Shown one piece after another: positions 7,011 to 36,942 of a stretch of DNA of 37,276 bases (positions are counted from its first letter, which is position 1; each line of letters starts with the position of its first letter). The stretch lies in NCBI GenBank assembly GCA_005797785.1, contig SYKL01000495.1, positions 1 to 37,276 of the forward strand. The letters are read 5' to 3'. The notes under the pieces were generated by a model, which saw only the letters and a program-made list of their open reading frames with translations, made no database searches and was not told the DNA's origin. The translations under genes were made by a program, and so were the position numbers. This DNA comes from Pseudomonadota bacterium. GTDB lineage: Bacteria; Myxococcota_A; UBA796; GCA-2862545.

Positions 7011-10000
7011 GGAGGAGCATGGTTCCGCCGACGCAGCCCCAGCGTATGGCCCTGCAACTGAGGAATTGTTCCTGTTTGGAGCCGAAAGTTCCCAGGATCT
7101 ATCATCGGCGTTGCAAGCCGGTGGGACCACTCTAGCCCAAGCCTCCCGCGACGTCTTGAGCCGTTGGAAACCGGCTTCTTGGGTGGCGGCATTTACGGCA
7201 GAAACCCTCGCGGACCTTCAGCAAAAGTTGGAGGTTGCCCGCAGCTTACTCGCCAATGGCGGCGGTGAAAAAGGCGGAGTCTTCGTCGCTCAGCCGAAAG
7301 CTGACGCGCGTCGCACCGCAGTGCTGTTTCCTGGCCAGGGATCCCAGTATACATCGATGGGGCGCACCCTGGCGCTCCGCCACGCCACCTTCCGAAGCGC
7401 GCTCGATCGCGCGGAAACCGCATTTGTCGCGAACGGAAAATCGTTGGCGGAGGTGGTCTACCCGATCCCCGCGTTCAACGAGGACGATCGTCAAGCCCAG
7501 GAAGCGCACCTGACCGCCACCGAATGGGCGCAGCCTGCGATCGGAGCCATCTCCAAGGCCATGTTCGAGCTGCTTCGGAGCTTTGGCGTCCAGGCCGAGG
7601 CCTTCGCTGGCCACAGCTACGGCGAGCTCGTCGCCCTGCATGCAGCGGGAGTGCTCGATGAAGCTTCGTTCTTTGCGGCATCGATCGCTCGCGGCGAGGC
7701 GATGTCGGATCGCGGCGGGGACCGCGGCACCATGGCCGCGGTGGCCGGCGATCCCGCGACGGTCGATTCAGCCCTGCTCGGAATCCCCGATGTGGGCGTT
7801 GCCAACCGCAATCACCCTCGGCAGACGGTGATCTCCGGAACGAAGACCGGAATTGCGTTGGCGATGCAAGCGCTCACCAAAGCTGGGCTTACCGTCAAAG
7901 CGCTGTCGGTTTCCGCGGCCTTCCATTCGCCGTTGGTCGCCGACGCCAAAGTGCCTTTCGCACTGTGCCTTCAAGCGCTGACGTTTGCGGCACCCGATGT
8001 ACCCGTGTACGCAAATACCTCTGCTCGACCCTACCCTTCTGAGCCCGACGCCATGCGCCAGACGTTGGCCGACCAGATCACGGCGCCGGTCGACTTTGTT
8101 GGAATCGTCAAGTCGCTTTACGAATCGGGGGTGAGAACCTTCGTCGAGTGCGGTCCGAAAGGGGTTCTCGCTGGCCTGCTTCGACAAAATCTGCGCGGTA
8201 AGGACGGGGTAGCCATCGTGAGCATCGACGCTGAGGCCGAGAGGGTCGACGGCGATGCCCAATTCAAGCGCGCCCTGGCCCATCTGGCGGCCCGCGGCGT
8301 GCCCGTCGACATCGCACCGCTCCTCCGCGACAGCCTGCCCCAGGAACCCCGCACGGCGGGCAGCAAGGCCACGGTCTGGTTGGGCGGTGCAAACTACCGA
8401 AAGCCGGAAACCATCTCGCCACCCGCGCCGAAAGACCTGCCGGTCGCTCCCAAGCCGGTGGTCGAAACCGTGGCCCAGGCCCCGGTCCCCAAAGTTCCGG
8501 TTCAAGCCGTGGAGAAGCGTGAGGCCCCACCCGTGCACGCTCCAACGCCGTCCATTTCTACACCGACCGCGGCCAGCACTTTAGTTCCTTCTTCCTCATC
8601 TTTTTCACCTCCCCCTGGAGACGAAATGTCCAACGCACCGGTGGATCCGACCCTTTTGGCCGCCCTTCTCGACAGCACCCGACAGGGGTTGTTGGCGTTC
8701 CAGCAGACACAAGAGCGTACCGCGCTCGTTCACGCGGAGTTCCTCAAGGCTCACGCCCGTGCAAACGATAGCTTCTCGGTGCTGTTTGCCTCGCACGCGC
8801 GATTGGTGGAACTCGCCGCGGGCGCCGATCTCGGTGAAGTAGCGCCAGCACCGCGAGCTTTGCCGGTCGCTGCTTCTGCGCCGCGCCCCGCAATGCCTGA
8901 CACCTCCGCGGTTCTTAGCTTCCAAGAGTCTTTTTTGAACGCCCGCCCCGCACCTGTGGATTCCGGCAGGGTGCAGATGCCGCAAACGGCTCGGCCGAAC
9001 GTCGCTTTGGAGAATGATCTTCCACAGATCGTCAGCGCCGGTGCTCCGGTGGCCCGCCCGGTCGCACGCTCGGAGGCTCCTCCTGCACCAGCCCCGAAAG
9101 CCGCCGCGAAGCCCACATCTTCCAGCCGCGACGCCATTCTTTCCGCAATGTTAGATACTGTCGCCGAAAAGACCGGCTACCCGAAGGATATGCTCGAACT
9201 CTCCATGGATTTGGAGGCCGATCTCGGCATCGATTCCATCAAACGCGTCGAGATCCTCTCCGCGGTTCAGGAGCAAATTCCTGGGCTTCCAGAGCTCGAC
9301 AACGACAAGATGTCCGCGTTGCGCACCGTGGGCGAGGTGGTCGAGTATTTGAGCGCCGCTGTCGGAGGTACGCCGGTTGTACCTTCCGTTTCCGCGCCGG
9401 TTGTACCTTCCGTTTCCGCTCCCGTCGCTGCTCCCGCCACCGGCGGTTCCCGCGATGCCGTCGTCGCAGCGATGTTGGAAACCGTTTCCGAAAAAACTGG
9501 ATACCCGCTGGAAATGCTCGAGCTCTCCATGGATTTGGAGGCCGATCTCGGCATTGATTCCATCAAACGCGTCGAAATCCTCTCGGCGGTCCAAGAAAAG
9601 GTTCCTGGACTTCCAGAACTCGACAACGAGCAGCTTTCCGCCCTGCGAAGCGTCGGCGACGTGGTCGATCACTTGGCGGCAGCACTCGGTGCCACTCCTC
9701 AAGAATCCGTTGAATCCTCGCTTCCTTCGCGCAAAGAAGTCCACCTTCAGCCGGCCCCACTGGGCCAACGGAGGTTACTTCACGGACTTCAACTCATCAG
9801 CGCTGATCGAAAGCAAGTAGCGGCACAACTCGCTGAGGCCTTGGAACGCCGCGGCGTCCAGGTTCAGGTGATCGATCCGGACTGGACCGATCCAACCCAG
9901 GTTCGTGCGGCAGTATTCGAGGGAGCTGCCGGAGTGATCCACTTGGCTGCTCTGGGCGAATCTGGACCCGATTTGCTTCAACGCGTCAAAGGCGCGCTGT

Positions 10001-11982: not shown

Positions 11983-11984
11983 AC

Positions 11985-14900: not shown

Positions 14901-17900
14901 GGCAAGAGCCGCATCATCACCGAATACGACATTCCCGCCGATGCTTGGTGGTCGCACGACGGAAAGGCCCCTCCCTGCATCATTGTCGAGTCCGGACAAG
15001 CCGATCTATTTTTGGTCTCCTACCTCGGGATCGACGAACAATGCCGCGGAAAACGGATCTACCGCCTGCTCGACTGCGATCTCACCTTTCACTCGTCGCG
15101 CCCCCCAGTCGGTGAAACCCTCCGTCACAACATCCGAATCAACCGGTTCGCCCGTCTCGGCGAAACCACCCTGTTCTACTTTGAATACGATTGCACGAAT
15201 CAGGGAGTTCCAACGCTAAGCATGCGGCAGGGCGTGGCCGGATTCTTCACCCCGGAGGAACTGAAAAAGCCCCAAGGCGTGCGAACGGTCGACGAGCCGT
15301 ACACCACCACGAACCCCTTCTCTCCAAGGTTTGCCGGTGTTCCCCGGGTACTCACCGACTCCTCGCTGCGCGCTTTAGAAAATGGCGACTACGCAGCCGC
15401 ATTCGGATCTGGCTTTTCGCTGGTACAAACCGATCTCCGGCTGCCCTCCGCTCCGTGGCGGCTGCTACACCGAGTGAAAGATCTCCGCTTTGAAGGCGGT
15501 CCCCACGGCTGGGGAGGCCTCCGCGCCGAACAAGACCTCCGGGACGACGACTGGTTCAACCCCTGCCACTTCCAAGGTGACCCTTGTATGCCGGGAACAT
15601 TGATGTTCGACGGCTGCATGCAAGCGTTGACCGTATGGCTGATGGGCATGGGTTGGGTCGCCGACTATCCAAATGCCACTTTTGAACCGATCCTTGAGCT
15701 GACCACCAAACTCCGCTGTCGCGGTCAGGTCGTCCCCGGCCACAGCCGGTTGGAATACGAAGTTCGCGTAAAATCCGCCGGAATGGAGCCCGCTCCTTAT
15801 GCGATCGCCGATGTGATCTTGCATGTGGACGGCGTCGCCGTCGTCCGGGCCGAAGATGTGGGCGTGCGCATCGAGGGAGAACGCCGAATCCCGCGCACGT
15901 TTGATGAGGCCAAGGTTCTGGAGTTTTCGGTCGGCCTCCCGTCCAAGGCATTTGGACCGGCATTCCTTCCTTTTGATCACGGGCGTAGAACCTCCCGCAT
16001 GCCCGGCCCACCCTACTTGACCATGAGTCGGGTGGTCGATGTGGACGGTGAGCCCGGAAAACTGGCCGCCGGACGCTCGGTTACCATCGAATACGACCTC
16101 CCGCCCGATGCTTGGTACTTTACCGCCTCCCCAGGAACCTCGCTCGCGTTTGCGGTCCTCACCGAAATCGCACTCCAACCTTGCGGATGGTTGACCGTCT
16201 ATCAACACGCCTCCCTGCCCGCAGGCGGGGATCTGTACTTCCGGAACCTAGGCGGAACCGGTAGAATGATCCGAAACGTCCAATCCGATGCCGGAACCCT
16301 CACCACCCGGGTGGTCCAGACTTCCGTTTCCAAGTCCGGCGGAATGTTGCTTCATTCCTTCGTTCTTTCAGTGAACGACCGAATCGGCCCCATCTTCGAA
16401 GGGGAAACCCAATTCGGGTATTTCACCGCCGACTCTTTGCTGAATCAAAAGGGACTCCCCCCTGACCCAAAATGGGACATCCTGTTCGCCGATCCGATGG
16501 AAAGCATCGATCTGAGCGCCTTGCCCCAATGGGGCATTTTGCCCCGTTCTGATCTGCGGATGATCGATCGCGCTTGGTCGGGCACCAATGGCGTTTGGCG
16601 CGCAGAAAAGGACGTCAACCCAAGGGAATGGTTCTTCACCGCCCACTTTCACCAGGATCCGGTCATGCCGGGATCCTTGGGGTTGGAAGCTCTCTGTCAG
16701 TTGGCTCGCGTAGCTCTGGCAAAAAATGGAATTACTCCCGAGTGGATCGAGCCCATCGCCAGTGGATCCACCGTCACCTGGAAATACCGCGGCCAAGTTC
16801 CGCCCACGCGCAAAATGCTCGCCTTTGAACTGAAAGTTCACTCGTTGGTGGACGGGGTGCTCACCGCCGACGGCCGCGTGCTCGGCGATGGATTGCCGAT
16901 CTACGAACTGAAAAACTTGGTCGTTCGGGCCGTTTCCGTTCCAGCGCCGGTCGTCCCCCAACTCCCCGTCCGTTCCTCTCCTGCCTCCGCGTTGATCGAC
17001 CGGTTCACCGTCACCGGAAACATCGGCGAAGGCTCGCTTCTTCTCGACGAACGCCTGCATCCCTGGCTCGCCGATCACCGCCCCACGGTCACGATCCCCG
17101 CGGTTCCTTTGGCATTTTCAGCGGAGATCGCGGCCGAAGCCGCCGCTCTGCTTTGCCCTGGCGAGGTCGTTTCCGGGATCACCTCGATCGAAGCCAAGAA
17201 ATGGTTGATCGCCGACGGTCCCACCGAGCTTCGAATCCACGCGCAGCGCGACGAAAACACCGTCCAAGTTACTCTCTCACAATACAGTGAAAATCGGCGA
17301 TTTCCGAAGCTTTCGGGATGGGTACCTCATGTGGTCGCCAAGGTCACCGTCGGCCCGGCGAGCCAGGCTCCCGCGGTATTCTTCCCGGGAAACCAGGCGA
17401 AAATCAAGCTCTCCCCCGAAGCATACTACTCCGGCGGGCTCACCTTTCATGGCCCCACCCTCCAAGCGATGACACAGGTCGGAACCCGCGGACAAGCGGG
17501 TGCAACCGCCACGCTACGCACGCGCTCCGACGCCGATCTGCTTCCTGAGGGTTCACCGAAATTCGTCCTGGACCCGCTGCTGCTCGATGCAGCCACACAT
17601 CCGATGTGGTCGGGTGAACCCGAGGTTTGGAACCCGGATATCCCCGCTGGGCAGCTCGCCTACCCGATCGCCTGCGAAAACCTTCGCATTCATGGCCCTC
17701 GCCCCGAAGGGGAAATCGAATGCCGACTCTTCCTGGTTGAAGCCAGCCTTTCTCGGCTGATCTTCGACGTTCAGCTCGGCTCTTGGTGCAGTTTCCGTTG
17801 GACGGAAGCGATTCTTCCCGGCGGCCCCATCTTGGGTGCGCCCTCCGCCCTTCGCCGCCGGTTCTGTTGGGAGAAACAGGCGGATCCATCGGTGGCCATC

Positions 17901-18242
17901 GGTCGCCCGACGCCCGACGGTTGGGAGGTCACCGACAGCGATCTCGTCGAACCTCTGGAAGGAACGTTGATTCGTCTCTACCGCTCCTCCAACGAACCCG
18001 TTCATCCGGCCCGATCGGGGATCGCCGTCAAGGAGGCCGTACGCCTTTGGTTTCGGGAGCGTCTACATCGCGAGGTTCATCCTGCGACTTTCACCGTCGC
18101 CTGCCTCGAACCACACCGGTGGATCGTCACCGACGCCTCCACCCTCACCGCCGACGAATTCATCGAACACCTCGGTCCTACCCGATTCTTCGTCCAGGTG
18201 GACGAGACAACGACGCGGACCGTCGCCCGCATTCACCGGTAG
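11985..18242 (+). CDS. pfaC-like: PfaC-like subunit: KS-CLF-DH-DH (FabA-type) plus C-terminal polyketide-type DH
   Basis: KS (VSLDAACASGLYAVGVA), Cys-less second KS (GPSFTIAAGGLSFAHALAHA), two FabA motifs (HFQGDPCMPGTLMFDGCMQAL; HFHQDPVMPGSLGLEALCQL), PS-DH motifs (LHPWLADHRPTVTIPAVPLAFSAE; FVLDPLLLDAATHP). Confidence 0.93.
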   Translation: MAWAVVGMDALLPGASSAEEWIANSRVGTPSLREVPAGRWPFSTAEALSLQEGAADKTLTLNGGFVEGVPADPCAWVRRVVRNALGDGKRDHQRTDLILASLGLPSTGSSRKAWSSLTHAVRFPEVDGPLLHQEQPATEIALELGFGGAVVSLDAACASGLYAVGVACERLKARECDLAIAAAVNAADSAFLFLGFSQLRALSKSGLSRPFDERADGLLVGEGAAAVVVKRLEDAIRDKDKIHAVIRGTGFGNDGRKGNPLAPDSIGQRRAISRAWETAGVSPASVGLIECHATGTALGDASEVSALNQWLQQSTDAPTQPVVLASAKALIGHTVTVAGLAGLIRTIGAVRDGFLPPTTCEQPMAQLQPHFRLVSAPSAWESPIRRAAVSAFGFGGTNAHVVVDNIVISPPSRVSNSIPLVIRSAAATLGKAESQSELQQALLEGRDLREPASVQLHRGPGMADGTYVENIRLNPSLWRVPPKELEEWLPQHLLFLEVARRALDAVPEVDRERMASIVGMSVDPRIFDHVARWGATEPDRISPPLSATRVQGLLPNLVANRIAGLLDLQGPSFTIAAGGLSFAHALAHAQKLIASGEVTSALVGAVDLRAHPGLWRLSPDEPIAEGAVAVVVTATGGGPKIVQISFDRGITDTPAHHDTAGHVGAADGAFSWLEACWRGKEQLSIGDLRLGDFRAHLGLVPGQLAFADPMEPRPLTVPHSLPTPLSDGLAPPMPRKSAVKAMLVHEPVDLPMVPLSWPVLTPTKPIAKEPMVKSLPSSGAPKPIQTPAIAAKANSKQTLPLPTPPIPLQRNRPSSDILQQGIASLQDLMAAVAKTSAAVTSAQAEFLANEHQALAQLEQLTRSPALSKAPLRPTSSADRTIGTPERPKTVTPQKIAAPQKAPLPAPQPDAPLRAPRQFDRAALEKFATGKLSEALGPLYADLDAYEPRTRLPSDPLLLVSRVLDVEGERGHFGKSRIITEYDIPADAWWSHDGKAPPCIIVESGQADLFLVSYLGIDEQCRGKRIYRLLDCDLTFHSSRPPVGETLRHNIRINRFARLGETTLFYFEYDCTNQGVPTLSMRQGVAGFFTPEELKKPQGVRTVDEPYTTTNPFSPRFAGVPRVLTDSSLRALENGDYAAAFGSGFSLVQTDLRLPSAPWRLLHRVKDLRFEGGPHGWGGLRAEQDLRDDDWFNPCHFQGDPCMPGTLMFDGCMQALTVWLMGMGWVADYPNATFEPILELTTKLRCRGQVVPGHSRLEYEVRVKSAGMEPAPYAIADVILHVDGVAVVRAEDVGVRIEGERRIPRTFDEAKVLEFSVGLPSKAFGPAFLPFDHGRRTSRMPGPPYLTMSRVVDVDGEPGKLAAGRSVTIEYDLPPDAWYFTASPGTSLAFAVLTEIALQPCGWLTVYQHASLPAGGDLYFRNLGGTGRMIRNVQSDAGTLTTRVVQTSVSKSGGMLLHSFVLSVNDRIGPIFEGETQFGYFTADSLLNQKGLPPDPKWDILFADPMESIDLSALPQWGILPRSDLRMIDRAWSGTNGVWRAEKDVNPREWFFTAHFHQDPVMPGSLGLEALCQLARVALAKNGITPEWIEPIASGSTVTWKYRGQVPPTRKMLAFELKVHSLVDGVLTADGRVLGDGLPIYELKNLVVRAVSVPAPVVPQLPVRSSPASALIDRFTVTGNIGEGSLLLDERLHPWLADHRPTVTIPAVPLAFSAEIAAEAAALLCPGEVVSGITSIEAKKWLIADGPTELRIHAQRDENTVQVTLSQYSENRRFPKLSGWVPHVVAKVTVGPASQAPAVFFPGNQAKIKLSPEAYYSGGLTFHGPTLQAMTQVGTRGQAGATATLRTRSDADLLPEGSPKFVLDPLLLDAATHPMWSGEPEVWNPDIPAGQLAYPIACENLRIHGPRPEGEIECRLFLVEASLSRLIFDVQLGSWCSFRWTEAILPGGPILGAPSALRRRFCWEKQADPSVAIGRPTPDGWEVTDSDLVEPLEGTLIRLYRSSNEPVHPARSGIAVKEAVRLWFRERLHREVHPATFTVACLEPHRWIVTDASTLTADEFIEHLGPTRFFVQVDETTTRTVARIHR
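13410..14130 (+). other. Chain-length-factor-like domain (condensing fold without active Cys), approximate bounds
   Basis: LPNLVANRIAGLLDLQGPSFTIAAGGLSFAHALAHAQKLIASGEVTSALVGAVDL; Gly where KS has Cys. Confidence 0.75.
14740..16980 (+). other. Tandem FabA-like dehydratase didomains (active His codon of first at 15567, second near 16644)
   Basis: Two hotdog pairs, each ending with HFxxDPxMPGxL...(D/E)...CQ/CMQ. Confidence 0.85.
16980..17870 (+). other. Additional polyketide-type dehydratase domain
   Basis: LLLDERLHPWLADHRPTVTIPAVPLAFSAEIAAEAA; YYSGGLTFHGPTLQAM; FVLDPLLLDAATHP. Confidence 0.75.
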
Positions 18243-20195: not shown

Positions 20196-23100
20196 GTGTT
20201 CGAACGTGCACCGCTGCTGCCGCCCGCTCTGGTCGCCACCGCTTTGGTCGGCGCTTTCCTCCTTGGTTTACCCTGGGGCAGCTGGCGATTCGGACCTGCG
20301 CTGACCGACGAGGCCCCTTATGTGGAAATTGTGGGCCACTATTCACCCGATCGTTGGGGTTCTAGCGGTACCATCGGCTCGGGCCCCGGTTCCGACATCC
20401 GACTCACCGAAGCGGACATTCCTCCCCAATTGGGGCGATTTGAGGCCACAGAAGCCGGTATCCACTACATCCACGACACCACATCCAATAATGCGGCATT
20501 CTATCCTATTGGAACGGGCCCTTTTGCACGCGTCCGGCCGGTGGCCGACGCTTTAGAACCCGTTCAATCCGGCGATCGGGTGTTGGTCTCGAAGGAGGCG
20601 ATCGCCGAAGCCGAGCTTCCCAGCCGATGCGACACCGCGACGCCTTTGCAGTTGGTCGATGCCACCGGATTATGGCTGTCCGAAAGCGGTGAACCGCGCA
20701 CTTGGGAGATTCCAGCCATCGGCGGCACCACCTCCACCTCGGGCGATGAAACCTTGGTTCTGCTGGAGAGTGGGCTTTGGAGGGTGCCTTCCGCAGAAGT
20801 CAAAAATGCCGAGGCCGTCGGAACCAAGATCAACGATTTCTCCGGCCGCTTCGAAAAGCCCGACGCCTACGTGCAAATCGGCGATGGCTCGCCGGTACCG
20901 ATCGGAATCACCGGCCGCTCCACCCCCTTGGACCCCGCTTTTCATGTCTTTCGACGAAAGCCGATGTCGGAATCGGCCTCCCCCTGGGCGTGGCGGATCG
21001 CGGACGCGCTCGCCTGGGTCGGTTTTGAAAGTGGGTTTTCGCCGCACATCGGGCGAGCCGACGGTTTCACCGGCCATTTGTACCGCTGCAACGAGCAGCC
21101 CCGGCCGATCGGAGAACAAGCTCTAAAGTCCGGCGACGTTCTACTCGCGGGTCACACCACTTTCGGCTTGAGAACGACCGAAAACCACGCCGTGGAGTTC
21201 ACTCCGACCGAACCTCCCGCTCACCGAGTTCACGCACTAAGTTCCGTTTCTCTCGGCAGAATCCGCAGCGTCAATCCGCACTGGTCGGTTCCGACCTGCG
21301 GTTCCGGCACCCTCCTGTTCCGTGGAACCACCGATGAAACGCTACTTCCAGAGGGCGTCGCCCCCGCAACCCCCAACCGTTGGTTGGCGTCGGAGCAATC
21401 CCTCATCGAAGTGCCGCTTCCCGCTTGGGCGGCACGCCACCATCCGCAGATTCAGGAACAAGGACTGCTTCGCGTCGATCTCTTGGAGATCTGCGTTGAA
21501 CATGGAAGACTGCGCATCGTCGATGATTTTGGACCTCCTTCGCTCAATTTGAACGAGCTGCACGGCAATTTCGTGGTCTCCGGCAGTTCCATCGGATTAG
21601 CCGGTCACAATCTACGCTTTTCCGCGCACCGACCTTGGTTGGAACGTGCACTGCCGTTGTTGTTGTTTCTACCGATCTTGTTCGCAACCACCTTGGTGAC
21701 CGCACGAAAGTTGCTCGGCGAGTCGGTCGCCCGCTCTCCTGAAGCCCGATTGGACCGTCTGTTTCCCATCTGGACGGTGGCCGCCGTGGGGGCGTTGATC
21801 GGCATTGGCGCCGTGGTGCAGACCCGGCTCGCCACCAGCCCCGCGTTGCTGGGCAGCGGCGACTACCTCCAACGGCACCTTTTAACCTCGCTTCTGGCCA
21901 GTTTTGCATTGCTCGCCGCTGTGGAAATCGGGCTGCACGCGCGAAATGGGTTTATCGATTCCCTACATCGCTCGGTTAAAGTTGCCCGTTCGGGGGCGAT
22001 CACGCTCACCCTGTGGCTGCTGGCCGACCGGGCCCTCTGGAGTCTATGGGGCAGGTCCGATGCGGACATTGCCGCATCGGTGTACGGAGATCTCAACCGC
22101 AGCCTGCTCACCGCCATCGTTCTTGCGGCGCTCCTCACCGGGCTGTCGTTTGCGCTGGGACGCAAGGTCGTTCAGGACAAGATCGCGGAGATCCTTGAGA
22201 ATCTCCGCATCCGTTGGGATAAGCTCCGCCCGACCGATCCCGCACCAGACAGCCGATGGGCTCCGGTGTTTGCCGCTTTCCAAGCGACTCCGCGCTCAGC
22301 GCTCATTCCCATGGGGGTCGGCCTCGCGCTCCTGGTGACGGGCGTTGTGATCGGCGGCACCGGGCGAGGATTGTTTGGCTTCGATCTCAAACTCGCCGAG
22401 TTTGCTGCCTGGCCGATCGGGCTTGCACTGGCGGCATTGTTGGTGTCCTGGTCCCGGACGGGCACCTCACTCGGCCGATTCGCAGTTCCGATCGGCATTG
22501 TGCTGTGGTTGGCATCGGTGACCGCCACGGTGGTGATCTGCTACGCGCTTCGCGGCGACTTTGGGCCGTTGATGGTGCTCGTTCCTGCCATGTTTGGCGG
22601 CGTTGCCATTTGGGTGCTGCCGTGGCGCCTTCCCGGCGACTCCACCTCGCCAACGATGCGGTGGGCGGTTTTGGCCGGATACGCCTCCTGTATCGCGATG
22701 GGGATCGGCCTGGTACTGTTGTTTGTGCCGTTCCTGGAGGCGCATTTTTCCGAGATCCCCGGCATCGGCACCCACGTTCAACGCGCGCTCGGCCGGGTCG
22801 AAACCCACCAGGAAACCTGGTATACGCAGGGCGGACACTGGTCCACCACCGCGAATTGGATGGCCGCAGGCTATTTCGAAGATCGCGAGCGCTACGTCAG
22901 CAACCTCCACTCCGATCTGGCGTTTGTCGCGGTGATGCAAAGCTTCCATGCGGTACGCGCCGCGGGAATCCTCGGACTCTTCCTGGCGGTGATCGCCCTG
23001 CTTGGGGCGATGGGAGAACGCCTGCTGAACGCTGCGGAACTGCAAAGCCTCCCGACGAACGTCGATCCCGATGAAAAGCGGCGAATGGTCCGAAAGCGCA

Positions 23101-23342
23101 TGCCCACACTGCTTCGGGCCGGGGCCGCGGGGTACGCCTGCCTGTTTGCTTCGATGTACCTGGGTTGTGAGCTGATCGTTCATTTGGGGACGTGTTTCAA
23201 TACGCTGCCGCAAACGGGGTTGACGTTGCCGTGGATCAGCGCGGGTGGCTCAGCGTCCGTCGGGTTTGCGATCCTGGTGGGAGCGGCATTAGCGACGTTT
23301 GTGTCGAATCGGAAGGGGTTGGAGGATGGTCAAGTCCATTGA
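20196..23342 (+). CDS. SEDS (FtsW/RodA-like) membrane protein with large (~480 aa) N-terminal extension, possibly FHA-like at its start
   Basis: C-term LGTCFNTLPQTGLTLPWISAGGSASVGFAILVGAAL resembles FtsW/RodA PxTGxxLPFxSxGGS; LHSDLAFVAVMQSFHAVRAAGILGL; N-term GSGPGSDIRLTEADIPPQLGRFE. Confidence 0.78.
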   Translation: MFERAPLLPPALVATALVGAFLLGLPWGSWRFGPALTDEAPYVEIVGHYSPDRWGSSGTIGSGPGSDIRLTEADIPPQLGRFEATEAGIHYIHDTTSNNAAFYPIGTGPFARVRPVADALEPVQSGDRVLVSKEAIAEAELPSRCDTATPLQLVDATGLWLSESGEPRTWEIPAIGGTTSTSGDETLVLLESGLWRVPSAEVKNAEAVGTKINDFSGRFEKPDAYVQIGDGSPVPIGITGRSTPLDPAFHVFRRKPMSESASPWAWRIADALAWVGFESGFSPHIGRADGFTGHLYRCNEQPRPIGEQALKSGDVLLAGHTTFGLRTTENHAVEFTPTEPPAHRVHALSSVSLGRIRSVNPHWSVPTCGSGTLLFRGTTDETLLPEGVAPATPNRWLASEQSLIEVPLPAWAARHHPQIQEQGLLRVDLLEICVEHGRLRIVDDFGPPSLNLNELHGNFVVSGSSIGLAGHNLRFSAHRPWLERALPLLLFLPILFATTLVTARKLLGESVARSPEARLDRLFPIWTVAAVGALIGIGAVVQTRLATSPALLGSGDYLQRHLLTSLLASFALLAAVEIGLHARNGFIDSLHRSVKVARSGAITLTLWLLADRALWSLWGRSDADIAASVYGDLNRSLLTAIVLAALLTGLSFALGRKVVQDKIAEILENLRIRWDKLRPTDPAPDSRWAPVFAAFQATPRSALIPMGVGLALLVTGVVIGGTGRGLFGFDLKLAEFAAWPIGLALAALLVSWSRTGTSLGRFAVPIGIVLWLASVTATVVICYALRGDFGPLMVLVPAMFGGVAIWVLPWRLPGDSTSPTMRWAVLAGYASCIAMGIGLVLLFVPFLEAHFSEIPGIGTHVQRALGRVETHQETWYTQGGHWSTTANWMAAGYFEDRERYVSNLHSDLAFVAVMQSFHAVRAAGILGLFLAVIALLGAMGERLLNAAELQSLPTNVDPDEKRRMVRKRMPTLLRAGAAGYACLFASMYLGCELIVHLGTCFNTLPQTGLTLPWISAGGSASVGFAILVGAALATFVSNRKGLEDGQVH

Positions 23343-23346
23343 CCAT
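23326..23346. terminator. Stop-overlapping hairpin H0: ATGGTCAA-GTCCA-TTGACCAT
   Basis: Perfect 8-bp inverted repeat containing the TGA of the SEDS gene; TTTCT follows. Confidence 0.6.
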
Positions 23347-23404
23347 TTCTGACCCTTGTCCCCCTGAGTCATCCATGGGATTCTAAGCTGGGCGTGGAGG
23401 CACC

Positions 23405-24020: not shown

Positions 24021-25022
24021 GTGAGCGAGACCCGTGCTCCTGGACTAAGAGCAATCGCGCTGGCATTCTCTCCCCTCTTGCTCATCTTCATTTATGAGCG
24101 AGGTGTTCTCCTGCTCGGACTCTTCCGCGCTTTGCCCAAAGCGCTTTTCGACCTCCTGTTTCCGAAAACGCTGAGCGACGTCGTCGTCGGCCGTCACCAC
24201 CTACAGCCTCGCCGTCGCTACCTGTTTTGGCGAGTTGCACATGGTGAACCCATTGAACTCGCCAACCTAGCGAAGCTCTATTTGCGTGAGGCCAAGATCG
24301 CGCGGGACCCCCCGTTGGATTGGATCGCGCTTCGATCCGACGGTACAGAGGTGATCCTCTACCGTTGGCGGCAAAGCGAGACCGCAAAGGCGGCCCAGAG
24401 GCAGGCCGCAGAGTGGTTACAACGTTCGGACTGGGCACACGCTCCAATAGAACGCCCGCTCGTTACTCCCACCAGTTTGGCGCGACCGAATTCCCTTTCG
24501 GTTCGCCGCAGCGGAGGAACCTCCATTCTGACGTGGGGGAACGTCGGCGTTGATTGGAGTGTTTGGGTTCAATCCACCCTCGGCATGGTCCTCAGCGCGC
24601 TGCTTGCGTACGGTGAGGCTTCCGGTTCGTGGCCAACCGAGCCCTTTTTCGCCTTGCTGTTTTGGCTGAGCGTGCCGCTCTGGCTGGGCACAGCGAGCCT
24701 GACCATGGCCGCCTCCTTCTACTTTCGAATGTTCCGCCTGGCCCCAACCTTAAGGTTGGACGAGAAGGGGATTTGGCAGATTCCGACAAAGCCCGAAGGT
24801 GAAGAAGAAAGCCCTTTGACCCAAGATCGCTTGGTGATCGCCTGGGACCGTATCGAGCGCCTCGCAGTCCGGCCCAGCGGCGCCGCCAACGTCTTTCAGG
24901 TCGTGGCGTTCGCCCTCGACGGAGAAATCGAGCTTATCGGACAATATCTCTCGGAAGGCGATGCCACCGGTCTGTTGGCGCAGTTAGAAGAGGAACATCA
25001 ACTGGTCAAGCGGGTTGACTAG
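24021..25022 (+). CDS. Membrane protein of unknown function (two central TM segments)
   Basis: ORF 23937..25022; GTG at 24021 (VSETRAPGLRAIAL) is the likelier start; TM segments around TLGMVLSALLAYG and FFALLFWLSVPLWLGTASLTMAASF. Confidence 0.65.
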   Translation: MSETRAPGLRAIALAFSPLLLIFIYERGVLLLGLFRALPKALFDLLFPKTLSDVVVGRHHLQPRRRYLFWRVAHGEPIELANLAKLYLREAKIARDPPLDWIALRSDGTEVILYRWRQSETAKAAQRQAAEWLQRSDWAHAPIERPLVTPTSLARPNSLSVRRSGGTSILTWGNVGVDWSVWVQSTLGMVLSALLAYGEASGSWPTEPFFALLFWLSVPLWLGTASLTMAASFYFRMFRLAPTLRLDEKGIWQIPTKPEGEEESPLTQDRLVIAWDRIERLAVRPSGAANVFQVVAFALDGEIELIGQYLSEGDATGLLAQLEEEHQLVKRVD

Positions 25023-25024
25023 TT
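25000..25024. terminator. Stop-overlapping hairpin H1: AACTGGTCAA-GCGGG-TTGACTAGTT (one G.T wobble)
   Basis: 10-bp arms; the TAG stop (25020-25022) lies in the right arm. Confidence 0.6.
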
Positions 25025-25034
25025 GTGCCGGTGG

Positions 25035-25370: not shown

Positions 25371-25378
25371 GAAAGACA

Positions 25379-25401
25379 AGTAGTCAAGAAACTTGACTAC
25401 T
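25379..25401. terminator. Stop-overlapping hairpin H2: AGTAGTCAAG-AAA-CTTGACTACT
   Basis: Perfect 10-bp inverted repeat containing the TAG of the minus-strand gene 25397..25930. Confidence 0.65.
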
Positions 25402-25930
25402 CCTTCCACGCCCCCGCATCCGCGATCGCCAACAAATAGTCGTACACATCCAGATCTTGCGCGACCGCCTTCGTCTTCGCCAAGTCCTTCGCAAAATCCG
25501 ACAACCCCGCAAACGGCTCCGGCACCTGGCGAACCGACTTGGCCACCTGCTTCACCGCCGGCCGAATTTTCGCCGTAAATCCCGCCCAAACCGCGGCAGC
25601 CACCACATCGTCGAAATCAAACACCGCTTCCTCGACATCCTCGTCGGCGACGTCGCCCTCGAGCACATCCTCGATCCCTTGAAGCATCCCTTCGAGGTCG
25701 AGCTCCTCAAATGCCGCCGCCAAAAGTTCTTTTCCTTCCTCGGAGCGCGCCCACTGTTTCGCCTCATCCACCTCAGCGGTCGGAGTATCGAAGCGCGCCA
25801 ACAATCCCGCCAACACAGCCAACTCGATCGCGTCATCCTCGTCTTTGGACGCATTGTCGAGTGCATCGCGAAGCTGGTCGACGAGAATGCCCCGCTCGTC
25901 TTTGGTGGAATCGATCGATGAGTCCGGCAT
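25397..25930 (-). CDS. Acidic hypothetical protein (177 aa)
   Basis: Low-bias ORF MPDSSIDSTKDERGILVDQLRDALDNASKDED...; no motif recognised. Confidence 0.65.
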   Translation of the reverse strand: MPDSSIDSTKDERGILVDQLRDALDNASKDEDDAIELAVLAGLLARFDTPTAEVDEAKQWARSEEGKELLAAAFEELDLEGMLQGIEDVLEGDVADEDVEEAVFDFDDVVAAAVWAGFTAKIRPAVKQVAKSVRQVPEPFAGLSDFAKDLAKTKAVAQDLDVYDYLLAIADAGAWKE

Positions 25931-29521: not shown

Positions 29522-31180
29522 ATGTCTGAGCCTACCGCCACCGAAGCCCTGTCCAATTTCATCGCCGATCGAATCACCGACGATCGGAGCCAGGGCAAAC
29601 ACGGCGGCCGCGTGGTCACGCGTTTTCCGCCGGAACCCAATGGCTACCTGCACATCGGGCACGCTAAGTCCATCTGCTTAAACTTTGGTTTGGCGCGCGA
29701 CTTTGGCGGACGCTGCAACCTACGTTTCGACGACACCAACCCCTCCACCGAGGATATCGAGTACGTCGACGCGATTCAGGAGGACATCCGCTGGCTTGGA
29801 TTTAATTGGGACGAGCTACACTTTGCGTCTGACTATTTTGAACAGTTGTATGAATGGGCCCAGAAGCTGATTCGCAGCGGCCATGCGTACGTCGATGAGT
29901 CCTCCGCCGAGGAAATCGCCGCCTATCGAGGGGATTTTCGTACTCCAGGTCGGCCGACCCCCTACCGCGATCGGCCGGCGGCGGAGAGCCTCGCGCTGTT
30001 TGAAAAGATGCGCGCCGGGGAAATCGACGAAGGAAAAGCGGTTTTACGCGCCAAGATCGACACCAATCATCCCAACATGAACCTCCGCGATCCGGTGATC
30101 TACCGGATCAAGAAGGCTCACCACCACCGCACCGGCGATAAGTGGTGCATCTACCCCATGTATGACTATGCCCATCCCCTGTCGGACGCGGTGGAGGCGA
30201 TCACCCACTCGATCTGTACACTGGAGTTTGAGGATCATCGCCCATTCTACGATTGGTGCATCAATACCGTAGACACCCCAGCCAAACCCAATCAGATCGA
30301 ATTTGCTCGACTCAACCTTAACTACACGGTGATGAGCAAGCGAAAGCTGTTGCAGCTGGTCAACGAAAAACTCGTGGACGGCTGGCACGACCCTCGCATG
30401 TTGACGATTCGCGGCTTGCGTCGCCGGGGATACACGCCAGCATCGATTCGTGCGTTCGCCCATCAGATCGGCGTCAACCGCACCAACAGCTGGATCGACA
30501 TGGGCGTGCTCGAAAATGCCGTTCGTGAGGACCTCAATGCCAGCGCTCCTCGCGCGATGGCGGTTTTGCGTCCACTGAAAGTCACGCTGACGAATCTCCC
30601 CGAAGAACGCGCCTGTTCGCTGTCCAACCACCCGCAGAAACCGGAGCTCGGCCATCGCGAAGTTCGGCTCACCCGCCAGATCTTCATCGACCGCGAAGAC
30701 TTCGAGGAAGTCCCGCCCAAAGGATTCTTTCGACTGGTTCCCGGCGGTTGGGTTCGCCTGCGCGGTGCAGGTTTCATCAAGTGCGACAGCGTCGAGAAGG
30801 ACGCTTCCGGCAATGTTACCGGGGTTTCCTGTACTTGGCACGCACCCATCGAAGGAAATGAAGGTCCGGGCGGCGGAAAGGTCAAGGGCACCATTCACTG
30901 GGTACCGGGAGACTCACCCGCCGCGACCGTTCGCCTCTACGATCGCCTGTTTTCGGTGGAGCATCCAGATGGCGATGACTGGAAAGCCCACCTCAACCCC
31001 AACAGCCGCGAGATCCTCGTGGACGCGCGGGTCGAGCCCTCTTTGGCGCACGCCAAATCCGGCGACACCTTCCAGTTTGAGCGCACCGGGTACTTTTGTG
31101 CCGACTCGATCGACTCAACACCCGGAAAACCCATATGGAACCGGGTCGTCACCCTTAAGGACTCTTGGGCAAAGCGCTAG
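29522..31180 (+). CDS. glnS: Glutaminyl-tRNA synthetase
   Basis: VVTRFPPEPNGYLHIGHAKSICLNFGLA, LRFDDTNPSTED, VMSKRKLLQLV (KMSKS-like), DPVIYRIKKAHHHRTGDKWCIYPMYDYAHPLSDA. Confidence 0.97.
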   Translation: MSEPTATEALSNFIADRITDDRSQGKHGGRVVTRFPPEPNGYLHIGHAKSICLNFGLARDFGGRCNLRFDDTNPSTEDIEYVDAIQEDIRWLGFNWDELHFASDYFEQLYEWAQKLIRSGHAYVDESSAEEIAAYRGDFRTPGRPTPYRDRPAAESLALFEKMRAGEIDEGKAVLRAKIDTNHPNMNLRDPVIYRIKKAHHHRTGDKWCIYPMYDYAHPLSDAVEAITHSICTLEFEDHRPFYDWCINTVDTPAKPNQIEFARLNLNYTVMSKRKLLQLVNEKLVDGWHDPRMLTIRGLRRRGYTPASIRAFAHQIGVNRTNSWIDMGVLENAVREDLNASAPRAMAVLRPLKVTLTNLPEERACSLSNHPQKPELGHREVRLTRQIFIDREDFEEVPPKGFFRLVPGGWVRLRGAGFIKCDSVEKDASGNVTGVSCTWHAPIEGNEGPGGGKVKGTIHWVPGDSPAATVRLYDRLFSVEHPDGDDWKAHLNPNSREILVDARVEPSLAHAKSGDTFQFERTGYFCADSIDSTPGKPIWNRVVTLKDSWAKR

Positions 31181-31181
31181 G

Positions 31182-31207
31182 CAAATAGTAAATCACTTTA
31201 CTATTTG
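31182..31207. terminator. Hairpin H3: CAAATAGTAAA-TCAC-TTTACTATTTG
   Basis: Perfect 11-bp inverted repeat starting 2 nt after the glnS stop. Confidence 0.7.
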
Positions 31208-31343
31208 ATCGACCACCAGCGCTTTGTGACCTTCAGTGCACGCCAATGCAAATGGTAACGTTTCTCCTTGGTAATGGTCTCACCAAGCTTTTGACTTTGC
31301 ATCGCCGCCCCACAGGCTAGAGTGGACCCGTTCTGGGGGGCGC

Positions 31344-32510
31344 ATGCAGCGTTGGATGTTTATGGCGGTGTTGGGCTCGGGTTGCACCCTTGCGGCTGAC
31401 CAGGCGGACGACATTGGCGCGCCCGCAGACACATCACAGCCCGACGACACCGGTCTGCCCGAAGACAGCGATCTCCCTGAAGATACCACCGCCGAAGATA
31501 CTTCAGAGGACACGCAGGACACGCAGGACACCTCCGTCCCTGACGTCGAGTGTCCCGAAGGCATGATCTGCCCGACCGAATTTCCTTTTGTCGACGCCAA
31601 CGACACCACCGACGGCACCACCGATCTCGATGCCTACAGTTGCTCACCATCCACGAATGAGTCCGGTCCAGAGCGCACCTACCAAGTGACGCTCGATAAG
31701 GCCGGTTTCCTCGCGGCCACTCTCGACAACCTCGGCACCTCCGTCGATGTCGACGTGCACATTTTGGAGGCCCTCGACGCCGACGATTGCATCGATCGCG
31801 GAAATTGGGATTCCGGCGCGCTCTTATCCGCAGGCACCTACTACGTTGTCGTCGACAGCTGGGTTTCGGGCTCAGGTGCAGTCAAGAGCGGCGACTACGA
31901 ACTCACCTTGGGGTTCACCCCTTTCGATGCCTTCGAAGCGGAGGATCTCGATCCGGACGTGCTCAGCGCAGGCCTGTTTGCGTTCGATGCCGCCTGGATG
32001 TGGGGCGACACCGACCGCCTCGAATACACCATCATCGATTTTTCCTTGTTCTCTGGGTACAAACGCTGGTGGACCATCGACCTCCGTACGGGAGACCTGC
32101 TGTTCAACGAGTGGGTCACGCACGGCTCCGGATCCGAAGACGAAGACAACCTTGGTTATGCAGATTCGTTCTCGAACATCGTGGATTCCCACCAATCCAG
32201 CCTGGGGCTGATGCGCACCGACTCGCGGTACACCGGCGACAATGGCCTTTCGTTGCGCCTCGATGGCCTGGAAGACGGGATCAACGACCGGGTTCGGGAG
32301 CGCGCCATCGTGGTGCACGGCGCATGGTACACAGGCGCGGATTTCGTCGCAGAGTACGGTTACAGCGGCAACAGTTGGGGCTGCACCGCGGTCGACGACG
32401 ATGTGATCGAGGATGTGATCGACACCCTCGAAGGCGGCGCCCTGATGTGGAGCTGGTACCCCGACGATAGCCTGGCGGCCTCGGAATACCTCGACGGGTG
32501 GGCACCCTAG
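31344..32510 (+). CDS. Lipoprotein with YkuD_2-type murein L,D-transpeptidase catalytic domain
   Basis: Lipobox LGSGC; DT-rich linker; DSHQSSLGLMRTDSRYTGDNGLSLRLDGLEDGINDRVRERAIVVHGAWYT...GNSWGCTAV. Confidence 0.85.
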   Translation: MQRWMFMAVLGSGCTLAADQADDIGAPADTSQPDDTGLPEDSDLPEDTTAEDTSEDTQDTQDTSVPDVECPEGMICPTEFPFVDANDTTDGTTDLDAYSCSPSTNESGPERTYQVTLDKAGFLAATLDNLGTSVDVDVHILEALDADDCIDRGNWDSGALLSAGTYYVVVDSWVSGSGAVKSGDYELTLGFTPFDAFEAEDLDPDVLSAGLFAFDAAWMWGDTDRLEYTIIDFSLFSGYKRWWTIDLRTGDLLFNEWVTHGSGSEDEDNLGYADSFSNIVDSHQSSLGLMRTDSRYTGDNGLSLRLDGLEDGINDRVRERAIVVHGAWYTGADFVAEYGYSGNSWGCTAVDDDVIEDVIDTLEGGALMWSWYPDDSLAASEYLDGWAP

Positions 32511-32656
32511 GTCGGCCGTAAAAAACGCGCCAACCCTAGACTTCGCGCTCACCGAGAATCGACCCCGCCTGTAGGGTTTTGAGAGTTCTTGCGTTCAGGT
32601 CGCAGGCGCCTTGCGTGCGTGCGGCAACCCATTATCTTACCGACACGGGTGTCATT

Positions 32657-34105
32657 ATGTTTATCATTTCTTTATTGCTTGCCTGCAAAGCGTTCACTCC
32701 CCAGGTTCGCCCGATTCAAGATGACACATCCGTCGAAACGGATGAGGAAACCGGAGACTCCACCCCGACGACCGAAACCGATTCCCCGCCCAACGATTCC
32801 CCGGTGGCGGACTGTGACGAGGCCGATTGCGGCGAACATGCCTCCTGCTCCGACGAAACCAACCAATGCGAGTGCGATCTCGACTACAGCGGCGACCCCT
32901 ACGAGGGCTGCGAACCCGTCGACGCCGTTTCGGGCTGGATTGGCAGCCCCTGCGACAACGACAATGATTGCGATTACGACGGAGGTGACTGCCTTACCGA
33001 CGGATTCCCGGAAGGGATGTGCACCCAAGACTGCACCTCAACCTGCCCCGATTTGGATGGGACACCCGTCACTTACTGCATTGATCCCGTTGAACCCGAG
33101 GGTGGGCACTGTTTTTCCAAGTGCGACTTTGGGTTGTACGCCAGCTCCAACGGTTGCCGCTCCGGCTACGCCTGCGTGGAATGGGACCGGTACAACCAAA
33201 ATGGCAGCGACTACGTCTGCGTTCCCGACGGTTGGGCCGAGGAAGACCCCTGCCTTCATCCCACCAACTTTGGCGGAAATGACGATTGTTATTTAGATAT
33301 GGTGAGCTACGGCGATCCCGAGTTGGCGGCGTTGACCCTCAAGATCCTCCAGGGCACCGCGGACGAGGACGAAGCGGAAGAATTCCTCGATCTCAACTAC
33401 GAGTATTCCCAAGACTTCATGACCGACGATCTCGGGATCGATACGATCTACGGCAACTATACGTCGGGACACTCAGCAAGTTCTCCAATGCGCGGTATGA
33501 TCGTTCACTATACCGCGTCACAGCGAGAAGATGGTACCATCGCCTACTTTGTCGGCGACGAGCCTCACGCCTCCACGCACTTTATCGTTGGCAGCTATCG
33601 AAACGGGCTGATCGTTCAGCTGTTTTCTCATCGAAACCGAGCCTGGCACGCCGGCAATACCTACAACATTGACCGGTTTGGGTTCGATTTCGCCAATGCC
33701 GGATACCTCCTGCCAGCAGGCTCCGGATACGAAGATTATGCCGGTCGGGACTACACTCTAGCGCTCCCCCTGCACGGAAACGAACCCATCCACGTCGAAG
33801 GCGGGATTCCGAGCGCGCCGGAAAACAAGTACGACGCCTACGAGGAGTGGCAGCCATTCACCTACTACCAAGTATTAAGCTGGATTGCCGTTTCTCGCGC
33901 GCTGGATCTCGTCTACGCGCTGGACGAAGACGCGATCGAACGCCACGGCGATGTGTCCGACAGCCGCGTCGATCCCGGGCCGGCGCTGCCATTGACCTAC
34001 ATGAAGGAACAAGTGTGGTCTGGCGACGACGTATTTCAGGTCGACTGGCTGAACGCGTACAAGGCCGATCCGGACTGGATTGCGGACCACCCCGAGGCCC
34101 GGTAG
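32657..34105 (+). CDS. Lipoprotein with EGF-like region and N-acetylmuramoyl-L-alanine amidase (amidase_2/PGRP) domain
   Basis: Start refined to MFIISLLLACK; DCGEHASCSDETNQCECDLDYSGDPYEGC; MIVHYTASQ...ASTHFIVGSYRNGLIVQLFSHRNRAWHAGN. Confidence 0.85.
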   Translation: MFIISLLLACKAFTPQVRPIQDDTSVETDEETGDSTPTTETDSPPNDSPVADCDEADCGEHASCSDETNQCECDLDYSGDPYEGCEPVDAVSGWIGSPCDNDNDCDYDGGDCLTDGFPEGMCTQDCTSTCPDLDGTPVTYCIDPVEPEGGHCFSKCDFGLYASSNGCRSGYACVEWDRYNQNGSDYVCVPDGWAEEDPCLHPTNFGGNDDCYLDMVSYGDPELAALTLKILQGTADEDEAEEFLDLNYEYSQDFMTDDLGIDTIYGNYTSGHSASSPMRGMIVHYTASQREDGTIAYFVGDEPHASTHFIVGSYRNGLIVQLFSHRNRAWHAGNTYNIDRFGFDFANAGYLLPAGSGYEDYAGRDYTLALPLHGNEPIHVEGGIPSAPENKYDAYEEWQPFTYYQVLSWIAVSRALDLVYALDEDAIERHGDVSDSRVDPGPALPLTYMKEQVWSGDDVFQVDWLNAYKADPDWIADHPEAR

Positions 34106-34118
34106 CGCCACGCACCAA

Positions 34119-34144
34119 CAGATAGTAAATCTCTTTACTATCTG
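34119..34144. terminator. Hairpin H4: CAGATAGTAAA-TCTC-TTTACTATCTG
   Basis: Perfect 11-bp inverted repeat 13 nt after the amidase stop; same as H3 except one compensated base pair. Confidence 0.7.
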
Positions 34145-34221
34145 GTTACCAAAATGTACCGGATTCCGCATGCGGATTCCTGCTTTCGCCAATCTGCGGT
34201 ATCGTGATCGACGGAGGGGCG

Positions 34222-36942
34222 ATGCCGCGGTCGATCCTGCTGGCGTTGGTACTGACAGGCTGCTTCGTGTCCAAAGACGACGTCTGTCTGGAGTTGGACC
34301 GCGACGAAGACGGGATCGCCCTTGGGCCTTCGGACGGTGCTTGCCCGAACATCGTCGGTACCTCGGACTGTGACGACGAAGACCCTTCCGTGGGCGCACC
34401 CCTTCGTTACCGCCTCGACGGCGACGACGACGGCTACCCCAACCCTGACGCCAATCTCGACGTGGTCGACCAATGCAGTCAACCTGCGCATTATTGGCCG
34501 GCGGACGACTTCATCGACGTGGCCAACGACTGCAACGATTCCGATCCGGGCACCGGGGCGGCGAGCATCGAGGCGTGGCCGGATGCCGACGACGACGGAT
34601 ACGGAGACCGCGAAAAAGACGAGGAGCTCCAGTGTCAACTCCTCGACGGCTTCGCAACCGTATCCGGCGATTGCAACGACAACGATGAAATGGTCCACCC
34701 CGACACGCCCGAGATCTGCAACGACGGCATCGACAACGACTGCGACGAGCTTCAGGACGATGAGGATCCGGGTAGTCACTCCGGAACTGCGACATTTTAC
34801 CTGGACAACGACCTCGACGGTTTTGGGTCGGCGGACCTCTCGGTAGCGGACCTGTGCGACGCCCCCGACGGGTACGTGCCCAACGCCGCCGATTGCGACG
34901 ACAGCGATGGCACCATCCACCCGGGAGCGGACGAGATTTGCAATGCGACCGACGACGATTGCGACGGCGAAGTCGACGACGAACCTCTGGATGGAACTCC
35001 CTATTTGGTAGACGGTGATGCCGACGGATACGGCGTTGTTGGGGTTGAAGTCGACACTTGCGACGGAGTGGTGGGGTATTTTGAAGGAGCCTGGGTTTCC
35101 GTCACCCTGGAAAGCGATGACTGCGACGACAGCCAAGCCTCGGTGCATCCCGATGCCACCGAGACGTGCAATGAAATCGACGACGATTGTGACGCGACAA
35201 TCGACGATCACCCTCCGTTAAACGAAGACAGCGTGCAGACCTACCCCGATCTGGACAGCGACGGTTTCGGTGACAAGGACGCCCCTTTCCTCATTCAGTG
35301 CTTAGCGATCGACTATGGGCTGCGTGAAGACAACAAGGGAGATTGCGACGATACTTCCGCCGCGGTCAATCCCCTTGCGACCGAGACCTGCAACGACGGG
35401 ATCGACGACGATTGCGACGGCTTGCCCGATGACGCCGATGCAGCCGTGGACGGGCAACTTTCGTGGAGGGTGGACGCGGACGAGGACGGCTGGGCCGTCA
35501 ACACCAATCCTTTCTCAGCATGCAACCCAGGTTCTGGCTATGTTATTCAGTTTGGTCCGCCATGGGATTGTGACGACGATCGCCAGGAAGTCAATCCCGG
35601 CGAAACGGAAACCTGCAACGGCTACGACGACAACTGCAATGCAAGTTCGCTGGCCGCCACCAATTCCCTGATTCCCATCGAGCAAGACGCGGATGTCGCC
35701 GAAATGGTTGCCCGGTACGCCGACGTCGACGGCGATATGTACGGGGATTCGACCTCCGTTGTGATGCGCTGCCCGAACGATTGGACGCGGTACGACGGCT
35801 CCTCAATCCCAGCCCTCGTGGACTACATCGCCGCTGACGGCGATTGCGATGACGCAGATATGGAAGTTCATCCCAACGCCGACGACGCCTGCGGCGACGG
35901 GTTCGACGCCGATTGCGACAGTGGCAGCGACAGCTGCGACGACATCGACATCATATTGCAAGAGGATCCTCCGGCCGGTACGCAATGGAGGCTTGGAATC
36001 TTTTCTTTCCGCCTGGTGGGTGCACCCAATGCCACCCAAGGACCTACGATCACGGACGCACAACTGGTGGAAAGTTGGCCGGCAAAAACCTCAGGCGAAG
36101 CGCAGAAATTTAGCCCAGATCCGACCGACCGTGGCACCTTTTTGGTCGGGGGCGAAGGGATCGCTTGGCTCGCCATCCTTTGGAACGACACCAACAACAG
36201 CCACACTCTGGATGCATTTGAAGAAATCGAGCGCCAAAGCAGGACCATGCCCCTGTGGTTGTCCGGCCCCTTGGACCTGTGGGAGGACAGCACCGCCGGC
36301 CTTCAGACGTTGTCGTTTCCGGGGGGAGTCGCCCACGTTTCACCCATCGACAAGGTGTTGGTGGCGGACGTTCCCGAGGTGGAGAGTATAAATTTCGATG
36401 TCGGATTGGGCTCGCTCACCGTCAATGCGGCCAACCGCCTCGCAACCGCCACCCGCGGCGAACTCGACACCACCGCGACCACCCAACGCGAAGTGAACCT
36501 CGCTTGGCCCACCGCCTCAAACCTGTCTTTCTCCTTGTCTGGCACTCCTAGCTTGGCAACCAATCGCACGGTGTACGGGACAACGGTGTACAGCCGCAGG
36601 CTGTCATTGATCACCTACCGCGACACCCGACCGACGGGAGCCCACGATGGGCTTTGGCAGTGGACTTCAGGCGACGAAGCAGTCAGCGAACACACCGCCG
36701 TTGCCCGGCACCTCTCCGGCTCCGGCGACGAGGAAGTGGTGATTTGGTGGCGCGAACGCCCCTCCACTCCCGAAGGGGCCGTGGTCATGGCGATCGAGGA
36801 CGCTCCGCCGGGGTGGCAGGTGCGCGCCGAAACTCGCTCAGGAGCCGAGATGCTACATTCGACGCCTTATGACGCCGATCAGACCATCCAAGTCAATGAG
36901 TGGTTTGTCTGCGCGGCCGGGTCTTTGTGCCCGGCCCCCTAG
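34222..36942 (+). CDS. Lipoprotein with multiple MopE-type 'putative metal-binding' Asp/Cys repeats
   Basis: Lipobox LTGC; repeats DCDDEDPSVG, GDCNDNDEMVHPDTPEICNDGIDNDCDE, DCDDSDGTIHPGADEICNATDDDCDGEVDD, GDCDDTSAAVNPLATETCNDGIDDDCDG etc. Confidence 0.9.
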   Translation: MPRSILLALVLTGCFVSKDDVCLELDRDEDGIALGPSDGACPNIVGTSDCDDEDPSVGAPLRYRLDGDDDGYPNPDANLDVVDQCSQPAHYWPADDFIDVANDCNDSDPGTGAASIEAWPDADDDGYGDREKDEELQCQLLDGFATVSGDCNDNDEMVHPDTPEICNDGIDNDCDELQDDEDPGSHSGTATFYLDNDLDGFGSADLSVADLCDAPDGYVPNAADCDDSDGTIHPGADEICNATDDDCDGEVDDEPLDGTPYLVDGDADGYGVVGVEVDTCDGVVGYFEGAWVSVTLESDDCDDSQASVHPDATETCNEIDDDCDATIDDHPPLNEDSVQTYPDLDSDGFGDKDAPFLIQCLAIDYGLREDNKGDCDDTSAAVNPLATETCNDGIDDDCDGLPDDADAAVDGQLSWRVDADEDGWAVNTNPFSACNPGSGYVIQFGPPWDCDDDRQEVNPGETETCNGYDDNCNASSLAATNSLIPIEQDADVAEMVARYADVDGDMYGDSTSVVMRCPNDWTRYDGSSIPALVDYIAADGDCDDADMEVHPNADDACGDGFDADCDSGSDSCDDIDIILQEDPPAGTQWRLGIFSFRLVGAPNATQGPTITDAQLVESWPAKTSGEAQKFSPDPTDRGTFLVGGEGIAWLAILWNDTNNSHTLDAFEEIERQSRTMPLWLSGPLDLWEDSTAGLQTLSFPGGVAHVSPIDKVLVADVPEVESINFDVGLGSLTVNAANRLATATRGELDTTATTQREVNLAWPTASNLSFSLSGTPSLATNRTVYGTTVYSRRLSLITYRDTRPTGAHDGLWQWTSGDEAVSEHTAVARHLSGSGDEEVVIWWRERPSTPEGAVVMAIEDAPPGWQVRAETRSGAEMLHSTPYDADQTIQVNEWFVCAAGSLCPAP

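Follow-up and report, generated by a model that had tools for sequence, protein, structure and literature searches.

A gapped dyad confined to one species among sampled relatives recurs genome-wide and favors gene ends

Results

Two hairpins flank L,D-transpeptidase and amidase genes

The window, i.e., the whole 37,276-nt stretch of DNA analyzed here, carries a class I tRNA synthetase gene followed by genes for an L,D-transpeptidase and an amidase, with one hairpin (H3 and H4) on either side of the latter two (Table 1). Each hairpin has 11/11 pairs and arms separated by 4 nt, and both fold far better than their dinucleotide shuffles (z = -3.4 for H3 and z = -5.6 for H4). The two near-identical hairpins of the original prediction are thus present, and the single A:T versus G:C pair by which they were said to differ is confirmed. 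Positions and domains also bear out that they flank two peptidoglycan-enzyme genes, but the claim that they do so "exactly" has no special meaning, given four further copies of the same element in the window. Five of the six window copies lie at gene 3' ends.

Other features of the window deserve mention. A second inverted repeat, CAAAGCGCT ... AGCGCTTTG, surrounds H3 (positions 31170-31226), and a nested stem is possible. A near-palindrome that misfits the dyad family, GGATTCCGCATGCGGATTCC, lies 16 nt past H4 and ahead of the next gene (34161-34180). The gene at 34204-36942 has repeated MopE-type metal-binding motifs (PF11617), and positions 5641-18242 hold two adjoining genes with very large products of 2113 and 2085 aa, the former being polyketide-synthase-like according to a PDB match.

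Table 1. Dyad copies in the window and genes next to H3 and H4
Feature	Position	Strand	Sequence or domains	Context
Intragenic dyad copy, spacing 5	8101..8127	.	GGAATCGTCAAGTCGCTTTACGAATCG	polyketide-synthase-like gene; codes IVKSLYE
Dyad copy, spacing 5	23323..23349	.	AGGATGGTCAAGTCCATTGACCATTTC	right arm includes stop TGA of gene 20196-23342
Dyad copy, spacing 5	24999..25025	.	CAACTGGTCAAGCGGGTTGACTAGTTG	right arm includes stop TAG of gene 24078-25022
Dyad copy, spacing 5	25377..25403	.	CAAGTAGTCAAGAAACTTGACTACTCC	3' end of minus-strand gene 25397-25930
Class I tRNA synthetase gene, Glu/Gln type	29522..31180	+	PF00749, PF03950, PF20974	upstream of H3
H3	31182..31207	.	CAAATAGTAAA-tcac-TTTACTATTTG	full match to family consensus; tRNA synthetase stop 1 nt before
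L,D-transpeptidase catalytic domain gene	31344..32510	+	PF13645	between H3 and H4
Amidase_2 gene	32615..34105	+	PF01510	between H3 and H4; exact start uncertain
H4	34119..34144	.	CAGATAGTAAA-tctc-TTTACTATCTG	amidase gene stop 13 nt before

A dyad with hundreds of copies

The genome assembly (G000; 514 contigs) is 81% complete, and about one-fifth of it was read directly; contigs L053, L089, and L096 consist of N throughout. Its gene content suggests Myxococcota. Consecutive contigs C1-C72 (649 kb) served as the unbiased set, and gene calling relied on a simple custom codon-usage caller, so that individual gene ends are approximate. The dyad has the core TNGTMAA-N4/5-TTKACNA and the full consensus CARATNGTMAA-N4/5-TTKACNATYTG. 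By half, the consensus reads CARATNGTMAABY / RVTTKACNATYTG; each half-site carries about 14 bits, an upper estimate because the search pattern fixed the core positions. The sequence TAGTAAANNNNTTTACTA occurs exactly 36 times in the 4.87-Mb assembly and, with up to two mismatches, 316 times against 2 for the reversed control; the shorter pattern GTMAA-N4-TTKAC occurs 508 times against 10 in the control. Extrapolation from the 649 kb gives about 700 copies per genome, or roughly one per 7 kb.

Spacing is tightly restricted: C1-C72 hold 58 copies with N4 and 36 with N5, and the remaining spacings between 0 and 11 have 0-4 each. Lone half-sites are scarce, which together with the restriction to spacings 4 and 5 identifies the symmetric pair as the unit. 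Neither loop nor flanks are conserved among copies, and base composition outside the arms is flat and alike on the two sides of the dyad, whatever the direction of transcription.

These counts bear on the supposition that the 31.2-34.1 kb block moves as a unit, which finds no support. Among 18 relatives, the same-genus genome included, no full-length homologue of the amidase was found; partial matches in five of them cover only about 120 N-terminal residues, and homologues of the L,D-transpeptidase are scattered. A two-gene cassette bracketed by hairpins was accordingly rejected, there being six copies in the window and some 700 in the genome, and an amidase with no full-length homologue in the relatives. 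H3 and H4 are two of these dispersed copies, which suggests an undescribed signal of genome-wide scope rather than one serving the pair of genes they flank.

Species restriction

Across 57 relatives, one from the same genus, GTMAA-N4-TTKAC occurs 0-15 times per genome, with similar control counts, versus 508 here. A longer motif, with 396 matches here, occurs 0-5 times in 376 of 378 other genomes of the phylum. The two exceptions (G126 and G153, from another family) have 18 and 23 matches against 5 and 4 in their controls, a slight surplus that common palindrome bias may explain. A de novo search for an analogous dyad, run on 400 kb from the same-genus genome, which is not closely related (75% identity for the two orthologous proteins that were compared), returned only signals at codon-periodicity-like spacings; the 50-80 kb searched in each of the other family members is too thin to judge. 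Among 84,980 species genomes, the long consensus has 55 scattered matches, never more than two in one genome and mainly in unrelated taxa; this is weak evidence, because the full consensus is rare even in this genome (4 in 1.04 Mb). Viral contigs gave 18 single matches. That the dyad is confined to one species among the sampled relatives is well supported. A literature search on the arm sequences retrieved no relevant paper by title.

Placement along genes

Dyad density in C1-C72 is highest in convergent gaps (2.24 per kb), followed by tandem gaps (0.75) and the last 30 nt of coding sequences (0.58), and is lowest in divergent gaps (0.35) and coding interiors (0.06). Correspondingly, 21 of 86 convergent gaps but only 5 of 82 divergent ones hold a copy. 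The stop codon lies inside the dyad in 24 of 45 3'-end copies, and about a third of all copies are intragenic. Copies are slightly over-dispersed among the contigs, which are unordered (p = 0.015). At L062:5908-6035, a pseudouridine-synthase-like gene is preceded by a divergent gap with two dyads, 102 bp apart; the genes flanking this double site include no clear candidate for an autoregulated binder.

Intragenic copies and their origin

Copies overlapping coding sequences number 50, versus 0.75 expected from codon-shuffled genes. Two were compared with their orthologs. The cystathionine lyase gene (L013) aligns without gaps across the dyad in 10 of 11 relatives, the 11th having gaps only at the edge of the compared region, and the pyruvate kinase gene (L088) does so in nine relatives. 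Relative to its same-genus ortholog, the latter has changed AGC>AGT, AAG>AAA, CGG>CGT, CTT>TTA, and CCG>CCA; this dyad was built almost wholly by synonymous changes. Mis-annotation of either gene is excluded because both encode conserved enzymes, and the gapless alignments together with the point substitutions rule out transposition as the origin of these two copies. An inserted repeat was discarded as a candidate on the same gapless alignments. The existence of a genome-wide, species-restricted dyad that is biased towards gene ends and, in the two genes tested, built by substitution is well supported.

Pairing and primary sequence

In C1-C72, mirror positions of 3'-end copies match 187 times, versus 154 +/- 7 for independent arms, a value reached in none of 4000 permutations, and mutual information (MI) is 0.124 for mirror positions but 0.053 for non-mirror ones. 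Intragenic copies give 105 mirror matches versus 99 (p = 0.20) and an MI of 0.082 versus 0.084. These figures depend on the choice of set: one assembled around exact copies inflates the core positions, and one stripped of contigs with near-exact copies has the opposite bias and little coupling.

The original prediction took the A:T/G:C difference between H3 and H4 as a sign of selection on pairing rather than on primary sequence. The difference itself proves little, because the position is simply R in the family (A 57%, G 30%). Covariation does indicate extra pairing at gene ends, so that part of the claim holds; its second part is wrong. Conservation of primary sequence is by far the stronger: hundreds of unrelated places carry the same dyad, and A:T pairs are retained where G:C would be stabler. 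The lack of coupling in intragenic copies and the flat, symmetric flanks make sequence recognition the common denominator, with pairing as an extra at 3' ends. This 3'-end excess may reflect selection on a transcribed stem-loop or template-switch correction of near-palindromes, a known mutational process (PMC7202029, PMC3820800). On the transcribed strand of tail copies, G-U mismatches outnumber A-C ones by 23 to 15, which is not significant.

The stem is AT-rich, and flank composition reveals no U-tract or T enrichment beyond the arms. No Rfam RNA family matches the window. A classic intrinsic terminator was rejected on the lack of a U-tract and on a terminator scan that remained at shuffle level and reported neither H3 nor H4.

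Discussion

For a palindrome of about 26 bp to occur hundreds of times in a single species while sampled relatives stay at background, either drive or selection must be strong and operate across the chromosome. Sequence alone suffices to measure this pressure, as intragenic copies have replaced codons of conserved enzymes through substitution. We tentatively favor, at a little short of even confidence, a species-specific chromosomal signal read by a putative symmetric DNA-binding protein; copies of the signal at gene 3' ends can fold into stem-loops as well. Copy number, spacing, placement, and origin by substitution are observed; the mechanism, i.e., a dedicated symmetric protein that marks the chromosome, is what we infer. 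Such a putative protein, presumably dimeric, would read the double-stranded dyad as a chromosome-scale mark, like Noc, SlmA, or MatP, and this reading would keep the sites in place. Copies would arise at the places of lowest cost, namely stop codons and convergent gaps, and only rarely in divergent promoter gaps or within genes. Those in 3' untranslated regions might be pushed further towards perfect stem-loops, either because a hairpin at the mRNA end is useful or because replication slippage corrects near-palindromes.

The independent variation of intragenic arms is as expected of a protein-bound dyad. Sites of Noc (NBS), SlmA (SBS), and MatP (matS) are likewise palindromic, double-stranded, and dispersed over one chromosome, but they number in the tens and lack the 4/5 spacing flexibility and the 3'-end bias of the dyad. 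For Noc and SlmA, 24-70 sites have been reported (PMC4726725), and a total of about 700, far above that range, counts against a chromosome mark. Covariation at 3' ends and the hugging of stop codons also speak against it, as they suggest an mRNA-end function that a neutral mark does not need. The search for candidate binders in this 81%-complete genome found no MatP and a single ParB-family protein. The dyad predicts a specific putative DNA-binding protein, open to search. An extended version, on which we are slightly more reserved, is that of an undescribed signaling system in a single lineage: after the split from the sampled genus-mate, a putative dedicated binder may have imprinted about 700 dyads by substitution, rewriting codons of conserved genes and sitting astride stops, to organize the chromosome or insulate convergent transcription.

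Alternatively, the dyad might be primarily a 3'-end RNA stem-loop, either a bidirectional terminator or a protein-recognized hairpin that protects or processes mRNA ends, with intragenic copies as by-products. The marked bias towards 3' ends of convergent and tandem genes, the significant pair covariation restricted to 3'-end copies, the good folding of the window copies, and the slight G-U excess all agree with this scenario. We nevertheless consider it unlikely, although it is the strongest of the competitors. The U-tract is absent, and the flanks show no asymmetry with respect to transcription direction; in about half of the 3'-end copies the arms include the stop codon, so that ribosomes terminating there would melt the stem; stabler G:C pairs have not replaced A:T pairs; and intragenic copies are far above chance, substitution-built where tested, and devoid of pair covariation.

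Less probable still is a putative self-recognition signal of the DNA-uptake type, which would spread through biased-uptake transformation and recombination, its inverted 3'-end copies doubling as terminators. Like DNA uptake sequences (DUS/USS), the dyad is over-represented, species-specific, and present in hundreds of copies in both coding and noncoding DNA; it is substitution-built even within genes, and intergenic stem-loop copies are enriched. Over-representation, intragenic copies, and intergenic stem-loops have all been described for DUS dialects (PMC3630211). DUS are, however, single directional words that pair only sometimes, whereas here the unit is an always symmetric pair with fixed spacing and scarce lone half-sites. 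At about one per 7 kb, its density is roughly ten-fold or more under DUS counts (PMC3630211).

Only a small probability attaches to a highly iterated palindrome akin to HIP1, kept by DNA modification and biased repair, with a putative orphan methyltransferase reading part of the dyad. HIP1 and its alternates are also palindromes far above chance, lineage-specific, highly iterated, and found within genes, the dyad shares with them the substitution-built character, and alternate HIPs differ between related genomes (PMC4390886). Yet they are short, contiguous, GC-rich words tied to known methyltransferases, whereas the dyad is long, gapped, and AT-rich, has two spacings, and is strongly biased towards 3' ends.

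The placement of REP elements is the same as that of the dyad: they lie between convergent and unidirectional genes, less than 20 bp from 3' ends, often supply a TAG stop, and are sometimes intragenic (PMC3733652). REPs of the GTAG and CGTC families are, moreover, short palindromes with hundreds of species-specific copies. A REP/MITE-type mobile repeat spread by transposition is even so very nearly dismissed, as both tested intragenic copies are gapless and derived by substitution instead of insertion, loop and flanks are unconserved, the symmetric flanks bear no one-sided GTAG or CGTC tag, and Y1_Tnp/RAYT (PF01797), the partner of GTAG-type REPs, was not found in the 81%-complete genome. With REP-like placement and an uptake- or HIP-like origin, the dyad uncouples two properties that tend to be treated as one.

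A last observation concerns the encoded proteins. Intragenic dyads in one reading phase repeatedly code for [ILVM]-V-N-x-x-T (L061, L065, L066, L078, and L013), which is a recurrent peptide in unrelated proteins, imposed by the DNA word.
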